DNA from: Stagnimonas aquatica
GTDB lineage: Bacteria > Pseudomonadota > Gammaproteobacteria > Nevskiales > Nevskiaceae
Assembly: GCF_003730135.1 (NCBI RefSeq)
Contig: NZ_RJVO01000002.1
Coordinates: forward strand, 372,001-436,000
DNA length: 64,000 nt
Direction: 5' to 3'
Shown piece by piece: positions 30,104-40,131 of this stretch; positions within the stretch are counted from its first letter, which is position 1, and every line of letters begins with the position of its first letter. Below the pieces are notes generated by a model. The model made no database searches and was not told the DNA's origin. It was given only the letters and a program-made list of their open reading frames with translations. Both the position numbers and the translations under genes were made by a program.

Positions 30104-30952
30104 CTAGTCCGCACCGCGCTCGAGGGCATCGCTCAGGGCGTCGCCGAGGCGGTTGAGGCAGAGCAGCGTCAGCGCCAGCAGGCCGGCCGGGAACAGCAGT
30201 GTCCAGGGCGTGCGCTCCATCTCGCGGGCGCCGTCGTTGACCAGCGCGCCCCAACTGGTGGCCGGCTCCTGCACCCCCAGGCCCAAGAAGCTCAGGAAGG
30301 ATTCGGTGAGGATCACCTGCGGCACGGTCAGCGTCGCCACCACCGCCACCGTACCCAGCAGGTTGGGCAGGATCTGGCCCCAGAGAATGGCGAAATCGCC
30401 CAGGCCCGAGGCGCGCGCTGCGAGCACGAACTCGCGCTGCTTCAGGGCCAGGGTCTCGCCCCGGACGATGCGCGCCATGTCCAGCCAGTTGATCGCGCCG
30501 ATGGCGACGAACACCAACCAGAACTCACGGCCGAACAGCACCATCAGCAGGATCACCAGAAACAGAAACGGCAGGGCGTAGAGGATGTCCACCGCACGCA
30601 TCATCAGCTCGTCGAGCCGGCCGCCGAAGTAGCCGGCGATGGCACCGTAGGCGACGCCGATCAGCAGCGAGACCGCAGTGGCGGCGATACCGACCAGCAG
30701 CGACACCCGGCCACCTTCCAGACTGCGCACGAAGACGTCGCGACCGAGACCGTCGGTGCCGAACCAGTGCCGCCCGGCCCACTGCGGCGGCTGCGCCCAG
30801 TCGGCGTCGAAGTCGATGCTGTCCACCGCATAGGGCGACAACAGTGGGCCGAGCAGGATCAGCAGCAGAAGCAGGCTCAGCAAGGCCGCCGCCAGCAACG
30901 CACCGCGATCACGGCGCAACAGCGGCCACAGGCCTTCCGCCATCGTGCTCAT
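30104..30952 (-). CDS. oppC: Oligopeptide ABC transporter permease, OppC type
   Basis: 282 aa. N-terminal helix 'ALLAAALLSLLLLLILLGPLLSPY', then 'HWFGTDGLGRDVFVRSLEGGRVSLLVGIAA', the hallmark of OppC/DppC. The EAA loop is 'EFVLAARASGLGDFAILWGQILPNLL'. About six membrane helices. It overlaps oppB by four bases (30949-30952). Confidence 0.93.
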   Translation of the reverse strand: MSTMAEGLWPLLRRDRGALLAAALLSLLLLLILLGPLLSPYAVDSIDFDADWAQPPQWAGRHWFGTDGLGRDVFVRSLEGGRVSLLVGIAATAVSLLIGVAYGAIAGYFGGRLDELMMRAVDILYALPFLFLVILLMVLFGREFWLVFVAIGAINWLDMARIVRGETLALKQREFVLAARASGLGDFAILWGQILPNLLGTVAVVATLTVPQVILTESFLSFLGLGVQEPATSWGALVNDGAREMERTPWTLLFPAGLLALTLLCLNRLGDALSDALERGAD

Positions 30953-31872
30953 GCTCGCCGCAGCCTGGGGTCAAGCAGGCCGTAGAGCAGATCGACCAGA
31001 AAGTTGAACAGCACGATCATCGCGCCATAGACCAGCACCACACCCAGCACCAGGGTGTAGTCGCGATTGAGTGCCCCCTGCACGAAGTAACGACCGATGC
31101 CAGGCAGACCGAACACCTGCTCGACGACTACGGAGCCGGTGATGAGTCCAGCGGTGGCCGGGCCCAGATAAGAGAGCACCGGCAGCAAGGCCGGCTTCAG
31201 GGCGTGCACCAGTACCACGCGGGACTCCGGGAGCCCCTTGGCGCGAGCGGTACGAATGTACGGCTGGCGCAGCACCTCCAGCATCGAGCCGCGCAACAGC
31301 CGGGCGATGGCGGCGATCTGCGGCAGCGCCAGTGCCAGCACCGGCAGCAGCAGATCGCTCCAGCGACCCGGTTCCCAGCCGCCCGCCGGCAGCCAGCGCA
31401 GCAGCACCGCGAACAGCAGCACCAGCAGTGGGCCCACCACATAGCTGGGCACCGAGATGCCCAGCATCGCCAGACTCATCAGGCCCCGGTCCAGCACGCT
31501 TCCCGGCCGCAGGCTGGCGACGACGCCCGTGGCTCCACCGAGCAGCAAGGCCAGCGCCATCGCCAACAATCCCAGGCTCAGCGATACCGGCAAGCCTGCC
31601 GCGATCAACTCGCGCACCCGGAAGCCCTGGTACTGGAATGAGGGCCCGAGATCACCGCGCAGCAGTCCGCCGAGATAGCGCAGGTATTGCTGCGGCAGGG
31701 GTTCGTCGAGGTGGTATTCGGCACGCAGGCTGGCCTCGATCTCCGGCGGCAGACTGCGCTCGCCATCGAAGGGGCCGCCGGGAGCGAGGCGCATCAGGAA
31801 GAAGCTGAGCGTCACCAGCAGCAGCAGGGTCGGCAGCGCCGTGAGCAAGCGCAGCAGCGCATAACGACTCAC
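30949..31872 (-). CDS. oppB: Oligopeptide ABC transporter permease, OppB type
   Basis: 307 aa. N-terminus 'LLRLLTALPTLLLLVTLSFFLMRLAPGGPF' is typical of OppB, with 'PYIRTARAKGLPESRVVLVHALKPALLPV' as the EAA loop and 'VVVEQVFGLPGIGRYFVQGALNRDY'. The start overlaps the stop of oppA (ATGA at 31869-31872). Confidence 0.94.
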   Translation of the reverse strand: MSRYALLRLLTALPTLLLLVTLSFFLMRLAPGGPFDGERSLPPEIEASLRAEYHLDEPLPQQYLRYLGGLLRGDLGPSFQYQGFRVRELIAAGLPVSLSLGLLAMALALLLGGATGVVASLRPGSVLDRGLMSLAMLGISVPSYVVGPLLVLLFAVLLRWLPAGGWEPGRWSDLLLPVLALALPQIAAIARLLRGSMLEVLRQPYIRTARAKGLPESRVVLVHALKPALLPVLSYLGPATAGLITGSVVVEQVFGLPGIGRYFVQGALNRDYTLVLGVVLVYGAMIVLFNFLVDLLYGLLDPRLRRA

Positions 31873-33482
31873 CGTGCCGCCTCGCCCGGACGCCCGACGA
31901 TGCGCAGATCCTTGCTGTAATGGATGTCCAGCGGATTGTCCTGCCAGCCCTGGACCCAGGGCTTCACCAGATGCTTGGAGGTGTAGGTGTAGATCGGCAG
32001 CAGCGGCTGGTCACGCAGCAGCATTTGCTCGGCCTGCGCGAGGTGCTGGCGGCGACGCTCGGAGTCCGCTTCTGCGGCTGCCAACGCCAGCAAGCTGTCG
32101 TAGTCCGGATTGCTGTAGGCCATGTCGTTCTGGCCGTGGCTGGAATGCAGGATGTCGGTAAAGGCCGTGGGGTCGTCGTAGTCGGCGATCCAGACCGCAC
32201 GGAACAACTGGGTGATCTTGCGCAGATTGCGATTCTGGATAAAGACCTTGAACTCCTCGTTGAGCAGCGTGGTGCGCACACCCAGCCACTGCTTCCACAT
32301 CGCCGCCACCACTGTCGCGATGCGCTTGTGATCCTCGTGGGTGTTGTAGCGCAGTTCCACCTCCAGCGGCCGCTGCTCGGAGTAGCCCGCCTCCGCGTAC
32401 AGGCGCCTGGCTTCGGCCAGCCGCCGCTCGCGCGACCAGTCGGCCCATTCCGGCCGTTGCGGCGTGTAGCCACTCAAGCCCGGCGGCAGCAGGCTATACG
32501 CCGGCAGCGCGAGACCGTTCATGACCTTATCGACGATCACCTGGCGATCCACCGCCAAGGTCAAGGCCCTGCGCAGCTTGGGGTTGTCCTTGAACGGTGG
32601 GCGGGAGCAGTTGAAGCCGTAGAAGTAGGTTCCGAGATAGCTGGAAACATGCAAATCCTGGCCATAGTGCTGGCGCAACCATGGCGCCTGCTGCAAGGGA
32701 ATCTCGTAGGTCACGTCCAGTTCGTCGGCGCGATACCGCTTGAGCTCGGTATTGCTGTCCTCGGAGGGCTGGTACACCACCGTGTCGATGGCAGTACGCG
32801 CATCGTTCCAGTAATAGCGGTTGCGCTTCAGGCGAATGGACGACTGCGGCGTCCAGGACTCCAAGGTGTAGGCGCCATTGCTGACCAGACGGCCAGGGCG
32901 TGCGAAATCCTTGCCCCAGCGCTCCAGGCTGGGGCGGTGGATGGGGAAGGTAGAGGGGTGGGATAGCAACCCGAGGAAGTACGGCCGAGGCGAGCTCAGA
33001 CGGATTATTAGAGTCTGCGCATCGATCACTTCCACGCCAAGCTCTCTAAGTTGCCGCGCCCCAACCATCACCTCCGTCGCGCCTTCGATAGGTGCCAGCA
33101 TCTGGGCATAGGCAGAACCGGTCGCTGGATCGACACTGCGACGCAGACCATCAGCAAAATCCTCTGCCGTTAGTGGATCGCCATTCGACCAACGCGCCTG
33201 CGCGCGCAGTTGGAACCGGTATTCCCGGCCGTCGGGACTGACCTCCCAGCGCTCCGCCGCGCCGGCAACGACCTCACCGCGAGACGACAAGCTGGTTAGT
33301 CCCTCGTAGAGGTCGCGTACGATGTTTGACGCGCTGACGCCCTCGACTCGCTGTGGGTCCAAGGTTTCAGGTTCGTTCCCATTGCCGACGCTCAGTCGTG
33401 ACTCCGCCGCGCAAAAATGGGCTGGGCACAACAGCAGCGCAGCCAGCATCTGCCAGCAGAGCTTTCGCGCCGGGAAACTCAC
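31869..33482 (-). CDS. oppA: Oligopeptide-binding protein, OppA type
   Basis: 537 aa from GTG 33482; the longer frame upstream lacks a signal peptide. Signal 'KLCWQMLAALLLCPAHFCAAES' then 'GNEPETLDPQRVEGVSASNIVRDLYEGLTS', the SBP_bac_5 start, and 'SNGDPLTAEDFADGLRRSVDP'. The C-terminus ends 'LDIHYSKDLRIV' as in OppA. Captures peptides in the periplasm for OppBCD. First gene of the operon. An internal methionine (ATG 33449) is an alternative start. Confidence 0.9.
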   Translation of the reverse strand: MSFPARKLCWQMLAALLLCPAHFCAAESRLSVGNGNEPETLDPQRVEGVSASNIVRDLYEGLTSLSSRGEVVAGAAERWEVSPDGREYRFQLRAQARWSNGDPLTAEDFADGLRRSVDPATGSAYAQMLAPIEGATEVMVGARQLRELGVEVIDAQTLIIRLSSPRPYFLGLLSHPSTFPIHRPSLERWGKDFARPGRLVSNGAYTLESWTPQSSIRLKRNRYYWNDARTAIDTVVYQPSEDSNTELKRYRADELDVTYEIPLQQAPWLRQHYGQDLHVSSYLGTYFYGFNCSRPPFKDNPKLRRALTLAVDRQVIVDKVMNGLALPAYSLLPPGLSGYTPQRPEWADWSRERRLAEARRLYAEAGYSEQRPLEVELRYNTHEDHKRIATVVAAMWKQWLGVRTTLLNEEFKVFIQNRNLRKITQLFRAVWIADYDDPTAFTDILHSSHGQNDMAYSNPDYDSLLALAAAEADSERRRQHLAQAEQMLLRDQPLLPIYTYTSKHLVKPWVQGWQDNPLDIHYSKDLRIVGRPGEAAR

Positions 33483-33813
33483 GACCAAGCTTTCGCCGAG
33501 ACCGGCTTTTCTAGTCGCGGCTTCGGAGTCACACACCCGCAGCGTGCCAAGCCAGTAAGGGTGCCCGTGACGTAAACCGCCCCTAGAAAGCTTGATCTCC
33601 TGAACCGCATCCCGAGCCGCGAAGCCGACGCCCCGGTGAAGCCGGCCGAATAGCGCGGAGACATATTGAACCGGCAAACAATCGGGAGAGAGCTGAATCT
33701 CCAACCTGACGATACCGTTGCTATGTACAGGTATTCCTCTGACCTAACGCGGCTCATGAGGCAAGCCCAATATGGAGCCAGGTCACGTCAGATTGTGGGC
33801 ATGGCTAGCAGGC
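33483..33813. other. Intergenic region, no gene recognised
   Basis: 331 bases between oppA and the TPR-hydroxylase gene. Overlapping short frames exist on both strands but none has a recognisable start, a domain or coding-like composition. G+C is lower than in the opp genes. It presumably holds the opp promoter and marks the edge of the accessory segment that follows. Confidence 0.5.
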
Positions 33814-35007
33814 TCATAACCCTTCGCTCGGAGTCAGTTCGTTATAACTATCCATTGCCGCCAGTACCGCGCTGATGTTCTCCCTCTCAATCGTGCTGAG
33901 GCGGGGATTCCAAACATCACAAATCAGCACCACGCGAACTTCGTTGCTGTTGTTCCAGGCCTCGTGCTCAATGGTGTCGTCGAAGATCCAGGCCTGGCCA
34001 ACACGCCACTCTCGGATTTCATTACCCACACGGAAACCGCAGCCCGAAGGAACCACCAAAGGGAGGTGCATCACCAAACGGACGTTGGCTACGCCGGTAT
34101 GCGGCGGAATTCGGGTTTGCGGCTTTAGCACAGAGAACATCGCCGCCGGCATGCGCCCCGCAGCTTGCGGTTGCGGCAACTTTGCCAACGCCGCCATCGT
34201 AGCCGGGCAGCGTAAACAGTTCTCTTCGTAACGGCGCCCGTGATGAAAAAAATGAAACGCGCTCCAGCTCAGCGAGCGATTCAATGCAGCCCATTGGTCT
34301 AGCGGAATGCCGTCGGGGTAATCAACATAGGGGGTGAACCCCTGCTCTACCGCCATAATTTGGGCGAGCTCCTGCTGAATTCGCGGAGTAGCTGCTTCCA
34401 GTTCTTCCAACCAGGGGAACTCGCCTCGCTCCCAAAACTCGGTTGCAGGCAGGCCGGGGTAGAAATAGTCTGTCGGCTCCTGTCGGAAGCGCGGCTTGAG
34501 GCCCAAAGTGGAGTCGACAAAGTTGGCGAGCCGTCGTCCCACCACACCGCTGTTGGTCTCTGTAATCAGCGGGACTATCTGGTTTAGGTGCTCACGCATT
34601 CCGCGCAGATAGCGTTCGTAAACCAAACGCCCATGTCGTATGGCCTGGAGGCTAGCTGAGTCTAGCCGACTATCCGCCGGCGCCTGGGTGAGCGCAACTC
34701 CGTACGCGCGGGCTGCTTCCTTCGATTTTCCGTCTCTTTCTAGCAACGTCGCCCTCATCAGAAGGGCGAGAAAGAAACGTGGATCAAGACGCAAGGCCTG
34801 ATCGACGGCGACCATTGCGCCCGAATAATCGCAGCAAGCTCTGCTGGCGGCCGCAAGGTGGAGCCACAAACCGGGGTCCGACGAGTGCAGATTCAATGCC
34901 TGTTTGAGGCGGTCCCGTGCCGTCTCAGCATCGGCAGCAGCCATCGCCTCACTGGCCTGCTGATGCAGTACCGATAGGGTCTGTTGAATCGTTCTCGACA
35001 GTTCCAC
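33814..35007 (-). CDS. TPR protein with C-terminal aspartyl/asparaginyl beta-hydroxylase domain
   Basis: 397 aa from GTG 35007, favoured by a GAGGGTGGG stretch at workable spacing; GTG 35019 is in frame and adds four residues. Residues about 20-115 are TPR-like ('GLWLHLAAASRACCDYSGAMVAVDQALRLDPRFF'). The C-terminal third is an Asp_Arg_Hydrox cupin: 'RIPPHTGVANVRLVMHLPL' (first Fe-ligand His303), 'AWIFDDTIEHEAWN' (His348) and 'VRVVLICDVWNP' (2-oxoglutarate Arg358). Predicted Fe(II)/2OG oxygenase acting on protein or peptide side chains, the target unknown. It lies downstream of the TonB-receptor terminator, same strand. G+C is lower than the core genome here. Confidence 0.86.
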   Translation of the reverse strand: MELSRTIQQTLSVLHQQASEAMAAADAETARDRLKQALNLHSSDPGLWLHLAAASRACCDYSGAMVAVDQALRLDPRFFLALLMRATLLERDGKSKEAARAYGVALTQAPADSRLDSASLQAIRHGRLVYERYLRGMREHLNQIVPLITETNSGVVGRRLANFVDSTLGLKPRFRQEPTDYFYPGLPATEFWERGEFPWLEELEAATPRIQQELAQIMAVEQGFTPYVDYPDGIPLDQWAALNRSLSWSAFHFFHHGRRYEENCLRCPATMAALAKLPQPQAAGRMPAAMFSVLKPQTRIPPHTGVANVRLVMHLPLVVPSGCGFRVGNEIREWRVGQAWIFDDTIEHEAWNNSNEVRVVLICDVWNPRLSTIERENISAVLAAMDSYNELTPSEGL

Positions 35008-35051
35008 CGTCAAACCCACCCTCGTCGTCTTTACGTGCTAGCAGATTATCC

Positions 35052-35083
35052 AAAAAAAAACGGCGGGTCTTACGAACCCGCCG
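35052..35083 (-). terminator. Rho-independent terminator after the TonB-dependent receptor
   Basis: Stem CGGCGGGT (35061-35068) / ACCCGCCG (35076-35083), followed in the minus-strand direction by nine T (35060-35052). It separates the receptor from the TPR-hydroxylase gene. Confidence 0.92.
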
Positions 35084-35109
35084 CTTTGATTGCAAACAAC
35101 AGTGCTGCT

Positions 35110-38100
35110 TTAGAAATCCAAGGTCACGCTGGTGAACAGGAAGCGTCCCATGGAATCGTACACCTGAGGATAGGTGTTACCGCTGCCGACAACGGAGGTC
35201 GTGGCGCCGGAGCCCACCAACGGCGGCTCGTTGTCCAGGACGTTCTGGATACCGGCGCGCACGGTGTACTTCTTCGCAAGGCGGATGCTGCCGAACAGAT
35301 CGAAGTAGCTCTGACCCGACAGCTTGTCGTCACGGAGATTGTTAAGACCAGAACCGTCAGCCTCGACCTCACCGATGTAGCGCCAAGCCAGCGAAACCGC
35401 CGAGTCATACCAGGGCATCTGCCAGCTACCACGCAGTTTGTGCCGCCACTGCGAAACCGGCGCGCCGCACTGCGGACCGTACTTACCGACGCAGTTGTAG
35501 GCCAGGCTTTCGTCACCCGGGATCGGGGAAACCTTCTGCTGGGTGTTCAGAGTACCGACGTAATCGACCACGAAGGTACCAACAGGACCCAGGCCGAGAT
35601 CGGTGGCCTTGATGCGGTAATCGCCCTTGAAGTCAATACCCGCAGCCAGCAACGTACCAGTGTTGGTCGTCGTGTCGACGACGTAACCGTTGTTGCTCAG
35701 CCAAAGGGTACCCTGGGTGATACCGGCGGTGGGATCGCGATTGATGAGATCGCAAAGCGCACCACTGTTGTAGCAAGAGGCCAGGATGGTATCTGCGCCG
35801 TAGCCCGAGATGTAACCGTCAACCTTGATGTTGAAGTAGTCGACGGAGAAGCTCAGGCCTTTGACAAACGACGGAGTCAACACAAAGCCAAAGGTATAGG
35901 TGTCGGCGGTCTCGGCCTTCAGGCCCGGTGAGGTGCCGACCTGGCCGTTGTACTGCTCCGCAGCATTCGGTCGGATGGTGCCATACAGTGCCGGGTTGGC
36001 GGCAATCAGCGGATCGTTAAGGCACTGGTCGCGCGTAGCGCCGCCTGAAACAACTTCACCCGCGGCAACCTGGTCCGGAGTCAGCAGACCAGCACAAGGA
36101 TCGGTCGAACCATCCAACTGCACGTTCAGCGGCGAGGCCAACTCACCGATGTTCGGGGCACGAACCGCTCGGTTGTAACTGCCACGAAGCTTGATATCGT
36201 CAACCGGAGCGTAGTTCAGGCCAACCTTGTAGGCGTTGGTGCTATCAATGGAGCTGTAGCTGGAGAAGCGATACCCGAGGTCAACGCTCAACTCCTTACC
36301 AAACGGCTGGTCCTGCCAGATCGGCAGTCGGGCCTCGGCAAAGAATTCCTTGACATCAAATTGCCCTCCGCTGCCAAGCGTTGCACCACCCTGACCAGCG
36401 AGGTCACCTGTGGCAAAAGCCTGATCAACTTCCAGGATGGAACGCTCGTCCCGGTATTCCGTACCCAACGCGACCGTAACGGCTTCATTAGCCCAGGGCG
36501 TCTGCAAGGGCAACGGACCGGAGACCGACGCCGTGGCAACACGCTCCTCAACCACTCCGAGCTGGAAGCCCGGAGTCTGGAGGTAGCCGAGAGCCGCAGG
36601 GGTCACGCCACCAACCGAGAAGATATTCCAGGGCACACATGCCGGGTCGGTCCCGTCGGCAAACGAGCGGCAAACCGCGTTTCCACTACCGTCATCGATG
36701 ACGTCCAGAGCCCGACCGACGCGCACGATCGAGAAGTCGTTGCGGTAAATGTTCTCGCGGGTGGTCTTACCGAACTGATAAGACGCGTCATAGGACCAGT
36801 CGCCAACGATATCACCCTTAATGCCGCCGACGATACGGAAGGAGTTGTGGCGGAGATCACTGTCACGACCACCACCTTCCACATTGCGGCGCAGGATCAG
36901 AGTGTCCGTGGTCTGGGCAGTCGGGTCTTCGTTCTGGAACAACAGGTCTTCCTGTTGCTGCGAGATCAGCGGGTTGTCGCGATCGATGGTGACGGCCACA
37001 CCGAAGGCGCCGCTGGGCGCGATCACGGCATTGGTGCGGTCATCCATGAACATGACCTGACTGTAAACCTCAGCGTGCTTATTGATCTCGTAATGACCAA
37101 ACGCACCCAGGGTGTAACGCTCGTCGTTACGCTGGAAGTAGTTGTACGGATTGAAGTTAAAAACGTCCGTCGCAGCGAACGGGCGGAAGGTATTGCCCGG
37201 ACCAGACGTATCAAGGGTATAGGCGCCATCGTAATTGCCAAGAATCTGGCCGGTCGCGCTGGTACCGGAACCGCCGCAGATGAAGTCGTTAGGCCGCGCA
37301 CCAGTCGGAGCACTAGCACGAGAAAGCGCGCACGCACTGAAGTCGCGCTGCCCCTGATCAATGGGATCAATCTGGCGGTAAGTCGCGTAGGCCGAAACGT
37401 TGCCCTTACCATCAGCCGTATTGGTGCCGATAACTGCGGCAAGATCCCAAGACTGACCGTCCCACTTATTCTCGGCAGGGCGCGTAAAGCCCTTGGCCTG
37501 CACAACATCGCCGATTTGACTGTCATTCTTGTGGTTGAAGATGCCGCGCTGAGCCTCGATGCGAACGCCTTCAAAATTCTTCTTCATCACGAAGTTGACG
37601 ACACCTGCGACCGCGTCAGCACCATAGGTGGCCGAAGCGCCGCCAGTCAGCACGTCAACGCGATCAATCAGTGCCGCAGGAATGAAGTTGAGGTCAGCGG
37701 TGGAATCGCCAGGATCACCCGGTTGCACGCGTTTGCCGTCGATCAGCACCAAGGTACGCGAGGAGCCAAGGTCGCGAAGATCCACAGTGGCAGTACCAGT
37801 CGCGCCGTTAGCGAGGTTGCCGCCCTGATCCGCAAACACCTGCGGCAGGCTGTTGAGCAAATCTTCGACGCGGGTGGTGCCTTGGAACTTAATCTCCTGC
37901 GCGCCTACCGTGGTAATCGGGCTGGAACTGGTCAGATTCGGCGCCTTGATGCGCGAGCCCGTAACCTGAACAGCCTTCAACTCCACCGCCTTGGTCGCCG
38001 GAGCAGCGGCAGGGGCCGCTTCAGGCGCAGGAGCCGTCTCAGGCACAGTGGTCGCCGCCGGAGCGGTGTCCTGCGCAAAAGTGGGAGCTGCGGCGCTGGC

Positions 38101-38163
38101 AATGCCAGCGGCGAACGCAGCCCACACTGACCTCCGAATACATCCGTCTACGCTAAGTTTCAT
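35110..38163 (-). CDS. TonB-dependent outer-membrane receptor
   Basis: 1017 aa from ATG 38163, preceded by GGGAG; a longer frame upstream is not coding. Signal peptide ends near 'AAAPTFAQ'. An Ala/Pro-rich stretch (about 33-60) precedes the likely TonB-box/plug start 'AVELKAVQVTGSRIKAPNL'. Plug motifs 'RVEDLLNSLPQVF', 'RTLVLIDGKRVQPGDPG', 'IDRVDVLTGGASATYGADAVAGVVNFVMKK'. The barrel ends 'FLFTSVTLDF', with the terminal Phe of BamA substrates. This is the CirA/OMR-type branch common in carbohydrate, peptide or siderophore uptake by Xanthomonas/Caulobacter-like bacteria. The ligand cannot be read. It is flanked by two 2OG-oxygenase genes. Confidence 0.93.
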   Translation of the reverse strand: MKLSVDGCIRRSVWAAFAAGIASAAAPTFAQDTAPAATTVPETAPAPEAAPAAAPATKAVELKAVQVTGSRIKAPNLTSSSPITTVGAQEIKFQGTTRVEDLLNSLPQVFADQGGNLANGATGTATVDLRDLGSSRTLVLIDGKRVQPGDPGDSTADLNFIPAALIDRVDVLTGGASATYGADAVAGVVNFVMKKNFEGVRIEAQRGIFNHKNDSQIGDVVQAKGFTRPAENKWDGQSWDLAAVIGTNTADGKGNVSAYATYRQIDPIDQGQRDFSACALSRASAPTGARPNDFICGGSGTSATGQILGNYDGAYTLDTSGPGNTFRPFAATDVFNFNPYNYFQRNDERYTLGAFGHYEINKHAEVYSQVMFMDDRTNAVIAPSGAFGVAVTIDRDNPLISQQQEDLLFQNEDPTAQTTDTLILRRNVEGGGRDSDLRHNSFRIVGGIKGDIVGDWSYDASYQFGKTTRENIYRNDFSIVRVGRALDVIDDGSGNAVCRSFADGTDPACVPWNIFSVGGVTPAALGYLQTPGFQLGVVEERVATASVSGPLPLQTPWANEAVTVALGTEYRDERSILEVDQAFATGDLAGQGGATLGSGGQFDVKEFFAEARLPIWQDQPFGKELSVDLGYRFSSYSSIDSTNAYKVGLNYAPVDDIKLRGSYNRAVRAPNIGELASPLNVQLDGSTDPCAGLLTPDQVAAGEVVSGGATRDQCLNDPLIAANPALYGTIRPNAAEQYNGQVGTSPGLKAETADTYTFGFVLTPSFVKGLSFSVDYFNIKVDGYISGYGADTILASCYNSGALCDLINRDPTAGITQGTLWLSNNGYVVDTTTNTGTLLAAGIDFKGDYRIKATDLGLGPVGTFVVDYVGTLNTQQKVSPIPGDESLAYNCVGKYGPQCGAPVSQWRHKLRGSWQMPWYDSAVSLAWRYIGEVEADGSGLNNLRDDKLSGQSYFDLFGSIRLAKKYTVRAGIQNVLDNEPPLVGSGATTSVVGSGNTYPQVYDSMGRFLFTSVTLDF

Positions 38164-38386
38164 TTGATTGACTCCCTTGGGGACAGCGAATACCAAAAAA
38201 TTAAAGGCCCTCGACCAAAGCAGGGCCCACATGCCAAGCCAACACGAGTTTCAGCCCAGGCTGTCACCGCAACGTAACGTTGTGCATTGCGACACGTCAA
38301 TACGGCTTACGGCCTAAACCCATATCCCGCCTGATACTTGTGGGAAAGCAAAATCCTTGCCCAGACAGGGAACCTCGCGGGCTAGC
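38164..38386. promoter_or_regulatory. Upstream region of the TonB-dependent receptor
   Basis: Non-coding, G+C-poor relative to the window. It should carry the receptor promoter; a TTGACG with TTACGT 17 bases downstream is visible on the minus strand, but the second hexamer is a poor -10 match. The left target-site copy of the IS (CTAGC, 38382-38386) is at its far end. Confidence 0.4.
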
Positions 38387-39407
38387 TGTAAAGGTTCGAT
38401 AGGTTGTTCATCCGGCTGTGGAGATGGGAATCTGAGCTTGTCGAGAGTTCAGAGCCATCACCAGGGAGCCGGATGAACAGTCATCAGAATGCCCGAACGA
38501 CGTGGCGTGGGCGAATGTGATTGGTAGAGCGGATCGCAGTCATTGGTCTTGCTGCCGCTGCGATTGAGGCGGGTATTTCGCAGCGCACGGCAGCGAAATG
38601 GAAGTCCCGCTTTGTGACTGAAGGCGACGCGGGCCTTCGGGATCGGTCGAGCCGACCTCATGCCGTGCGCGCGGCGCTGAACGGAGAGCAGCTTGCTGAA
38701 GCACTGCGCTTGCGTCGGGCCCGCTGGACGATCCGGGCGATTGCCAGCTCACTGGCAGCGCCCTATCCGACTGTGCGGCGGTTCCTGGCCGGTCGGAGCT
38801 TGAGCCGGCTGCCTCCCATCGAAGCGCCACCACCGGTGGTGCGCTACGAGCATACGACGCCCGGGTCTATGATTCACCTCGACACCAAGAAGCTCGGGCG
38901 GCTCGAGAAGACCGGACACCGCATCACCGGAAACAAGCGCGATCACGTCTGCTGCGTGGGCTGGGAAGTGCTGCATCTGGCCATTGACGATCACAGCCGG
39001 CTGGCCTACACCGAAGTGCTGATCGACGAGAAGAAAGCTACGACCACCGACTTTCTGGAACGCGCACTGGCGTGGTTTACCGAACACGGTGTTTCAACCG
39101 CGCGGGTGATGACGGACAACGGCGTGTCCTATCGCTCGAAGCCTTTTGGTGCCGCACTGGCCGTACGAGGCATCCGCCACGTCTTCACCAAACCGTATAC
39201 GCCACGGACCAACGGCAAGGCCGAACGCTTTGTGCAAACGGCACTGCGCGAATGGGCCTATGCCCATGCCTATAACCACTCCAGCGAACGCACCGACCAG
39301 CTTGCACGATGGAACCACTTCTACAATCACCACCGACAACATTCAGCAATCGGCTTCTGCCCTCCCATCAGCCGCATCCCCATGAATAACGTATCGAACC
39401 TCAACAC
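38387..39407 (+). mobile_element. IS481-family insertion sequence
   Basis: About 1.02 kb. The left end TGTAAAGGTTCGATAGGTTG and the right end (reverse complement) TGTTGAGGTTCGATACGTTA are clear imperfect inverted repeats, continuing into TTCAT on both sides. It is flanked by CTAGC on the left (38382-38386) and CTAGC on the right (39408-39412), a direct target duplication consistent with IS481's CTAG preference. It sits between the TonB receptor and the oxygenase genes. Confidence 0.88.
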
Positions 39408-39411
39408 CTAG
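38473..39411 (+). pseudogene. IS481-family transposase with an in-frame TGA after codon 15
   Basis: The expected start is ATG 38473: 'MNSHQNARTTWRGRM' matches the conserved N-terminus of IS481 transposases, then TGA at 38518-38520 interrupts, and the same frame goes on 'LVERIAVIGLAAAAIEAGISQRTAAKWKSRF' (helix-turn-helix) and 'GLRDRSSRPH'. The DDE catalytic core is intact: 'LHLAIDDHSRLAYTEV', 'VMTDNGVSYRS', 'YTPRTNGKAERFVQTALREW'. Translation could restart at TTG 38521 (296 aa), so it may be active or partly active. The stop codon TAG (39409-39411) lies in the target-site copy. Confidence 0.82.
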
Positions 39412-39442
39412 CAGTCGATGTTTGGCCTTTGGGGAGGCGTGC

Positions 39443-39481
39443 ATGAATTGCGGCAGGACAAGTACCATCAACCGCAAATGA
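39443..39481 (+). CDS. Possible 12-codon leader peptide coupled to the oxygenase gene
   Basis: GGGGAGG (39431-39437) at good spacing precedes ATG 39443. The frame reads 'MNCGRTSTINRK' and stops at TGA 39479-39481, which overlaps the oxygenase ATG (ATGA). The oxygenase itself has no Shine-Dalgarno, so this leader may drive its translation by coupling. Whether the peptide has its own role is unknown; length gives little statistical weight. Confidence 0.4.
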   Translation: MNCGRTSTINRK

Positions 39482-40131
39482 ACTTACAAATTACAACCCC
39501 TTTTGCGACGCCATTCGGCTTCGCTCGTCACCCGGCACCAAGCAGTTTGAACGCTGAGTTGCGCAGGCTATTTCTCGAAAAGGAAAAGGATCCTTCTTCC
39601 GCCAATGCGAAGGCCACCATGCAGGTGACCAAGGACTTATTCGAGAGCCGCTTCGACTTGTTCAATTGGCCCGAGCCATGCGTACGCGAGTTGCGGGAAT
39701 TCTGCTGGCGGCACTTGCACCACTTCGTCTCGACATTGCATGGTCAAGAGGCCACCACACTGTCTAGAATCATCGGACATGCCGATGCTTGGTTCCACGT
39801 CACTCGACAGCACGGTTATTTCGGACTTCACAACCACCCCATGGCTTCGTGGTCGGGCGTCTACTGCGTCGATTCGGGATGCAACGGCGAAGAGCCAGAG
39901 AAGGGAGGCCTACTAAGTTTTCCGCACCCCAACCTCGCCGCCGCGATGTTCAAAGATGCGGCAAACAGCAAGCTCAGAATCCCGTACGGCTATCAATCCC
40001 GGGAGTACTTCTTGAACCCAGGCGATTTGCTGCTGTTCCCATCCTGGGTATCGCACCAAGTCACCCCATTTTTCGGGGACTCCCCGCGCATCACCGTGGC
40101 TTTCAATGCGTGGTTCACGTTTTCTCAGTGA
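39478..40131 (+). CDS. Putative 2OG-Fe(II) oxygenase, TIGR02466 type
   Basis: 217 aa from ATG 39478; the longer frame lacks a credible start. The family pattern is present: 'AWFHVTRQHGYFGLHNHPMASWSGVYCV' with His118 and His120, 'GGLLSFPHP', 'LNPGDLLLFPSWVSHQVTPFFGDSPRITVAFNAWF' with distal His193 and Arg204. Predicted Fe(II)/2-oxoglutarate dioxygenase of unknown substrate. It lies right after the IS, transcribed away from the TonB receptor, and before the IS arrived the two would have been divergent neighbours. A bidirectional terminator follows. Confidence 0.86.
   Translation: MNLQITTPFATPFGFARHPAPSSLNAELRRLFLEKEKDPSSANAKATMQVTKDLFESRFDLFNWPEPCVRELREFCWRHLHHFVSTLHGQEATTLSRIIGHADAWFHVTRQHGYFGLHNHPMASWSGVYCVDSGCNGEEPEKGGLLSFPHPNLAAAMFKDAANSKLRIPYGYQSREYFLNPGDLLLFPSWVSHQVTPFFGDSPRITVAFNAWFTFSQ

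Follow-up and report, generated by a model that had tools for sequence, protein, structure and literature searches.

The 64,000-nucleotide stretch of the Stagnimonas aquatica genome analyzed here (positions 372,001 to 436,000 of contig NZ_RJVO01000002.1; referred to as the window) contains a slot bordered on one side by opp genes and on the other by the rplQ-rpoA operon, within which a large TonB-dependent receptor (TBDR) is encoded together with two different Fe(II)/2-oxoglutarate (2OG) oxygenases (Table 1). The first of these, TPR-AspH, joins tetratricopeptide repeats (TPR) to an aspartyl/asparaginyl β-hydroxylase-type domain; its gene starts 90 bp past the receptor stop, both on the minus strand, and the pair looks intact. 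The second oxygenase gene and the receptor gene are divergently oriented. The first-pass annotation gave the types and coordinates of the TPR-AspH and receptor genes correctly, with PF05118, TPR_14, Plug, and TonB_dep_Rec_b-barrel all above their Pfam cut-offs; the three genes that it grouped as one segment are present, but it overlooked an IS481-family insertion sequence (IS) lying between the receptor and the second oxygenase. Across genomes the pairing of AspH with a receptor goes beyond chance, whereas the association of the exact trio is weak.

TABLE 1 Features of the receptor slot and its borders (window positions unless a locus is named)
Feature	Coordinates	Strand	Remarks
OppC-type permease (cluster label)	30104..30952	-	Label from sequence clustering, no Pfam scan
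OppB-type permease (cluster label)	30949..31872	-	Same-labeled protein elsewhere matches BPD_transp_1; window copy without Pfam scan
OppA-type peptide-binding protein (SBP_bac_5)	31869..33704	-	Adjoins AspH
TPR-AspH (TPR plus aspartyl/asparaginyl β-hydroxylase-type 2OG oxygenase)	33814..35019	-	401 aa
TonB-dependent receptor	35110..38163	-	1017 aa; plug and barrel; five Cys pairs in large loops
IS481-family insertion sequence	~38386..39407	+	Imperfect terminal inverted repeats, CTAG at either side; boundary ambiguous by one base
IS481-family transposase open reading frame (ORF)	38521..39411	+	NCBIfam NF033577
PF13759-type Fe(II)/2OG oxygenase	39478..40131	+	217 aa from the likely start; listed ORF begins at 39418
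rplQ-rpoA ribosomal operon	from 40242	-	Other border of the receptor slot
Small Cys-pair protein, examples	L107:8105-8629; L110:5592-6218; L074:11205-11822		

The TPR-AspH protein matches PF05118 at 156.7 bits (cut-off, 22.6) and, in its N-terminal part, TPR_14 at 24.5 bits (cut-off, 23.5), and its best NCBIfam matches, OlsC (105 versus 450 bits) and LpxO (58.6 versus 500 bits), fall far under their cut-offs. Residues H307, G309, H352, and R362 are invariant in all 42 aligned sequences, that of the window among them, and the first metal-site motif is H-x-G rather than H-x-D/E. Human AspH, in which the Fe and 2OG ligands have assigned roles, acts on protein side chains; its active-site letters (Ser, H-x-G, Arg, His, distal His, and Arg) match those of the window protein when the two are aligned, and by this comparison H307 and H352 are the probable Fe ligands and R362 the probable 2OG ligand. 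In an AlphaFold2 model (mean predicted local distance difference test score, pLDDT, 93.7) the oxygenase domain matches that of human AspH with a Z score of 22.2 and a root mean square deviation (rmsd) of 2.2 Å over 189 residues, and the N-terminal part is a helical repeat with TPR matches at a Z score of about 17. The two proteins have in common the order of TPR and PF05118, the active-site letters, and the oxygenase fold, and they differ in that the window protein is bacterial, apparently cytosolic, and linked to an outer-membrane receptor, and perhaps in the placement of its domains in the model.

The second oxygenase had been taken for a TIGR02466-type enzyme, but at 52.7 bits it stays under the NCBIfam cut-off of 62.5; under this curated rule it is, by profile score, a PF13759 protein outside TIGR02466 (63.2 bits; Pfam cut-off, 27). 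H118 and H120 (H-x-H), the distal H193, and R204 show no variation among all 17 aligned sequences, the window copy counted, and motif comparison makes them the predicted Fe and 2OG ligands, so that the retention of Fe-ligand His residues and a 2OG-binding Arg predicted for both oxygenases agrees with their conservation. The nearest solved relatives carry the name "uncharacterised." We note that ATG 39478 is more likely to be the start codon than position 39418, because close relatives (L063 and L091 to L094) begin at the matching position in the alignment and the ORF as listed starts roughly 10 bp from the border of the IS.

Receptor linkage was surveyed in two sets of loci, which are related by descent to varying degrees, so that the counts are not independent events. 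The first set comprises 146 genomes, that of S. aquatica included, among which 26 code for a full-length TPR-AspH and 18 for a protein closely related to the second oxygenase, and from which 27 TPR-AspH loci were fetched; the wider set is the best 80 of at least 595 relatives from a scan of named genomes, reduced to 75 loci when duplicates (L103, L104, L105, L109, and L113) were removed. Neighboring genes outside the window were called with our own ORF script and assigned to families by hidden Markov models made from clusters, with a Pfam check on single representatives (the TonB-labeled representative of L137 gave no Pfam match). Controls, chosen by hand with a single gene per genome and mostly from the same bacterial family, were 20 TPR-less PF05118 proteins and 20 weak PF13759 matches; the nearest 1.5 kb had already been seen when PF05118 controls G022, G034, G011, and G035 and PF13759 controls G000, G023, G019, and G012 were chosen. 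In 24 of the 27 loci of relatives and in 51 of the 75 wider loci, which by record title span Alpha-, Beta-, and Gammaproteobacteria, TPR-AspH has a TBDR no more than 9 kb away, and so does the second oxygenase in 10 of 16 loci (a set without the window and G089); the corresponding control figures are 0/20 for TPR-less PF05118, the family shared with the lipid hydroxylases OlsC and LpxO, which have no TPR part, and 2/20 for generic PF13759. TBDR genes number 27 in the S. aquatica genome (3.8 Mb) and 9 to 46 per genome in six genomes checked. Within 1.5-kb flanks, a TBDR is present for TPR-AspH in 11 of 26 cases, for the second oxygenase in 6 of 18, and for the sulfotransferases described below in 12 of 30, and for TPR-less PF05118 and weak PF13759 proteins in 0/4 and 0/12. 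The joint survey of both oxygenases near TonB receptors proposed by the first-pass annotation therefore bears out the AspH-receptor linkage but not the oxygenase pair: both enzymes are present in 10 of the 146 genomes and sit together at a single receptor locus in 4 of these (S. aquatica, G003, G054, and G123), and the two are found at one receptor locus in 2 of the 75 wider loci.

In a Nitrospirillum locus (L126:9836-15252), a TPR-AspH gene with no recognized TBDR is situated upstream of genes for a histidine kinase and an HD-domain response regulator. The record of L125 is titled as a Klebsiella pneumoniae MAG (metagenome-assembled genome), and its receptor is 0.07 tree units from the proteobacterial receptor of L122; the title is probably wrong.

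The IS481-family transposase scores 274.3 bits with NF033577 (cut-off, 224), and the element has imperfect inverted arms (75% complementary over 51 nucleotides) and CTAG flanking both ends, and it looks complete. Its relatives elsewhere in the genome are all partial, with no more than 77% identity. When the element is excised in silico, the receptor-side gap aligns well with the intergenic region between receptor and oxygenase in congener G003, and the oxygenase side aligns poorly. The element now lies between the second oxygenase and the sequence upstream of the receptor, but the receptor, AspH, and second oxygenase genes were most likely adjacent before it inserted, because the same three genes stand together at the same site in G003 without an IS.

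The G+C content of the three genes is lower than that of their flanks, as first noted, with third-codon-position G+C (GC3) of 0.64 to 0.69 compared to 0.77 to 0.85 for OppA, L17, RpoA, and SecY. The accompanying claim that they moved as a unit is not supported. The G003 copies, with a receptor 85% identical to that of the window, are also G+C poor at the same site (GC3 of 0.66 to 0.73 versus 0.84 to 0.89 for comparison genes), which rules out inferring a recent joint transfer from low G+C. Within the window's family, genus g3 likewise has its receptor-AspH pair between rplQ and opp (L066, L069 to L071, and L074), and the g9 locus L080 has the same arrangement with additional genes interposed. 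The second oxygenase is located elsewhere in four g3 genomes (G039, G045, G049, and G052), where the approximately 20 kb fetched around each include no receptor of this clade, and it thus moves independently of the receptor-AspH pair. The receptor gene of G006 (L066:6057-9130) is split into two ORFs of 403 and 622 aa, likely by a frameshift in the gene or the assembly.

Inheritance of the rplQ-opp slot in several genomes of the window's family, the IS481 element close by, and the occurrence of orphan AspH genes could all be accommodated if there were no functional link, with receptor loci acting as gene-exchange sites that gather unrelated enzymes or the neighborhood being common simply by descent. 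We consider this very unlikely, as controls of the same superfamilies are near a TBDR in only 0/20 and 2/20 cases and the linkage reappears across three classes, at different sites and with altered gene orientation. Among 57 cases with AspH and a TBDR within 2 kb, the genes are codirectional with the TBDR first in 22, convergent in 28, and divergent in 7, with none having AspH first; this variation means that the linkage is not simply a single inherited operon.

Many of the receptor loci also code for other modifying enzymes. Pfam matches of cluster representatives include TPR plus Sulfotransfer_3, TPR plus PF13759, a fusion of PF05118 with Sulfotransfer_3, a methyltransferase, Sulfotransfer_2, other 2OG oxygenases, DUF4915, EamA, and a DUF3450/ExbB/ExbD/TonB/TPR set; a TPR domain is thus fused to two oxygenase families and one sulfotransferase family. 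Among the 51 wider receptor loci, a further modifying-enzyme family is present in 31, a sulfotransferase in 27, an additional 2OG oxygenase in 26, and a second AspH in 22, with TonB/Exb genes in 9 and Opp genes in 6, and the receptor and AspH are alone among these enzymes in 10. The 23 receptor loci of the first set (23 rather than 24 under a stricter score) include 17 with another modifying family, 1 with a second AspH, 3 with TonB/Exb, 12 with Opp, and 6 with the receptor and AspH alone. Across a receptor tree with 99 rows, changes in enzyme presence were compared with the mean of 60 shuffles: there are 14 changes for TPR- or AspH-fused sulfotransferases (shuffled mean, 32.8), 13 for TPR-2OG enzymes (19.2), 13 for AspH (20.1), and 8 for the second oxygenase (10.5), and the enzymes track receptor lineages yet are often gained and lost. 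The S. aquatica genome has no match to the partner sulfotransferases at an E value of 1e-60. PF05118 and sulfotransferase domains are joined in a single protein at L077:6786-8870 (its cluster mates in L084, L088, L089, and L101 resemble it in length), and this fusion suggests that both activities meet one substrate. The TPR-sulfotransferase gene of G050 (L194) has one in-frame TGA.

The first-pass annotation suggested an uptake-coupled modification system formed by the receptor and two oxygenases. The specific oxygenase pair is not sustained, but the AspH-receptor linkage is far above the controls and the loci gather modifying enzymes, a combination that fits a receptor-linked modification system. 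A polypeptide is the likely substrate of the TPR enzymes, given the TPR domains in two oxygenase families and one sulfotransferase family, the active site of the human AspH type, and the linkage to receptors. Tentatively, and with somewhat less than even confidence, we propose that the window locus belongs to a widespread class of modular loci centered on a clade of approximately 1,000-aa TBDRs, in which TPR-guided enzymes modify the receptor precursor. The adjoining enzymes, which have no evident export signal and would be cytosolic, and many of which bear TPR, would hydroxylate (TPR-AspH, TPR-2OG, PF13759, and other 2OG enzymes), sulfate (TPR-sulfotransferases), or methylate; the TPR domain may grip a polypeptide in extended form as its side chains are altered by the catalytic domain, in the manner of human AspH. 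That polypeptide would most likely be the precursor of the receptor, acted on in the cytosol ahead of Sec export, and the outer loops of the receptor would then bear hydroxyl, sulfate, or methyl groups that could tune ligand binding or block the binding of phages and bacteriocins. The receptor precursor is favored as substrate because no inner-membrane importer, such as an imported substrate would require, and no peptide gene is constant among the recognized families, and because the enzymes are linked to the receptor whatever their orientation.

The Opp genes that adjoin the window locus raise the alternative that the imported ligand is the substrate, with the receptor taking up a peptide, an Opp-type ATP-binding cassette system carrying it into the cytosol, and the enzymes converting or inactivating it. 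Consistent with this, opp genes occur away from rplQ, within the stretches fetched, in six wider loci (L111, L112, L133, L139, L165, and L179; Pfam checked in two), a relative of the receptor in G024 (L186) is beside an M28 peptidase and an amidase, and G059 (L098:4203-19901) has a run on one strand of TBDR, methyltransferase, TPR-sulfotransferase, PF13759 oxygenase, DUF3450, ExbB-like, ExbB, ExbD, TonB, TPR, and opp genes. These six are, however, the only Opp-bearing loci of the 51, the opp genes beside rplQ may be an inherited neighborhood, a sulfated and hydroxylated imported nutrient would have no obvious use, and enzyme sets differ between related receptors; we regard modification of an imported ligand as unlikely.

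Several loci also code for a small, secreted-looking Cys-pair protein with a C...LAC(Y/F)D-like motif and no Pfam match (22 of 75 wider loci and 6 of 27 in the first set), and a second small, secreted-looking Cys-pair ORF is intergenic near receptors in four loci (L106, L110, L111, and L175). Such a protein, a TonB/ExbD component (TonB/Exb genes are in 9 of the 51 loci), or an unrecognized peptide might be the polypeptide that is modified, with the receptor sensing or taking up the product, and an EamA-type transporter found in 5 of the 27 loci could export it. Most loci have neither small protein, though, and among the 15 largest short-ORF clusters from 287 intergenic segments scanned for a hidden precursor peptide, those other than the Cys-pair family are mostly group specific (L131 to L162) or pieces of known genes, making a separate co-made substrate a still less probable explanation than ligand modification.

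The receptor itself has Plug and TonB_dep_Rec_b-barrel domains above the Pfam cut-offs, the plug beginning near residue 78, and its model (mean pLDDT, 82.0) has large extra loops. It matches BtuB with a Z score of 33.8 at 2.6 to 3.2 Å; BtuB, Cir, and PirA are all at about 33, and the model gives no hint of a ligand, resembling solved TBDRs in general. Only AspH/TPR and TBDR folds are among the matches listed for the AspH and receptor models. In a residue-signature scan of 99 receptors (Asp and Asn against AspH, Tyr and Ser/Thr against sulfotransferases, and Pro and Lys against 2OG enzymes), the largest single-residue differences with sulfotransferases are at Ser (0.55), Tyr (0.46), and Thr (0.42), followed by Ala (0.41) and Val (0.40), and the TPR-2OG scan gives Thr at 0.53 and Pro at 0.48. 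The top ranking of Ser, Tyr, and Thr is a hint only in favor of the receptor as substrate.

Several observations weigh against modification of the receptor precursor. In the AspH scan, Asp (0.38) and Asn (0.44) do not exceed residues unrelated to the enzyme and are below Ser, Ala, Gly, Cys, and Tyr. For the top positions, including Ser/Tyr/Thr against sulfotransferases, tree-independent pairs give no significant link, with median p values from 0.06 to 1 among the rows listed, in a weak test with at most 13 pairs. Human AspH substrates have an EGF (epidermal growth factor)-type consensus, and the one receptor Cys loop inspected, C820-C827, has no such AspH-like consensus. Superposition of both TPR-AspH domains together on human AspH gives an rmsd of about 14 Å (293 to 309 residues), and the TPR-oxygenase geometry in the model may therefore differ from that of human AspH, or the domain placement may be uncertain. 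No TBDR is within 8 kb in 15 of the 50 AspH loci that have at least 8 kb on both sides, and 16 AspH loci have no recognized family of the set nearby (both counts still include the five duplicates); one or two neighbors scanned in six of those 16 are signaling proteins, a helicase, a polymerase-type protein, and an AsmA-type protein, with one lacking a match. Close relatives of the receptor have no adjoining AspH in G001, G017, G064, G070, and G024; their neighbors include the second oxygenase (G017), a TPR/transglutaminase-like protein (G064), a LapB-like TPR protein (G001), and, in G024, a TPR-2OG enzyme at one locus and catabolic genes at others. Among the sulfotransferase loci, 18 of 30 have no TBDR within 1.5 kb. 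The fuller proposal, that these loci are receptor-decoration systems in which TPR-guided hydroxylases, sulfotransferases, and methyltransferases, exchangeable for one another, act before export on the outer loops of a large TBDR and so vary the surface between close relatives, for example keeping uptake while escaping phages and bacteriocins, is doubtful as a whole, albeit a little more plausible than modification of an imported ligand.

Parts of such a system have counterparts elsewhere. RaxST/RaxX of Xanthomonas and animal TPST are protein-tyrosine sulfotransferase systems; partner enzymes in the related loci also carry Sulfotransfer_3, and cytosolic sulfation of an exported polypeptide would be a precedent, but the partner sulfotransferases here are TPR fused and receptor linked. 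Energy systems of the TonB2/TtpC type resemble the DUF3450, ExbB-like (with an extra N-terminal part), ExbB, ExbD, TonB, and TPR genes held by some related loci, although no such genes are seen beside the window receptor. BrvH represents a TBDR-linked flavin halogenase locus and likewise has a TonB receptor next to a tailoring enzyme whose substrate is not established; the chemistry is different, and no halogenase is among the representatives scanned.

The component families are all known, and their combination appears to be undescribed in the open PubMed Central (PMC) literature, in which, judged by titles and abstract openings, we found no paper on an association of TBDRs with TPR-AspH. One article on gene clusters co-occurring with halotolerance gives neighboring numbers to a lasso-peptide protein, sulfotransferases, and an aspartyl β-hydroxylase (PMC10040529). 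If the receptor is the substrate, these loci would represent a eukaryote-like, TPR-guided route for modification of bacterial outer-membrane proteins, which would matter for uptake, for the use of receptors by phages, and for antibiotics that target receptors. If it is the ligand, they would mark an unrecognized peptide-uptake pathway. On either reading, the loci provide a defined enzyme set and candidate substrates, with which the functions of TPR-AspH and the TPR-sulfotransferases become testable.

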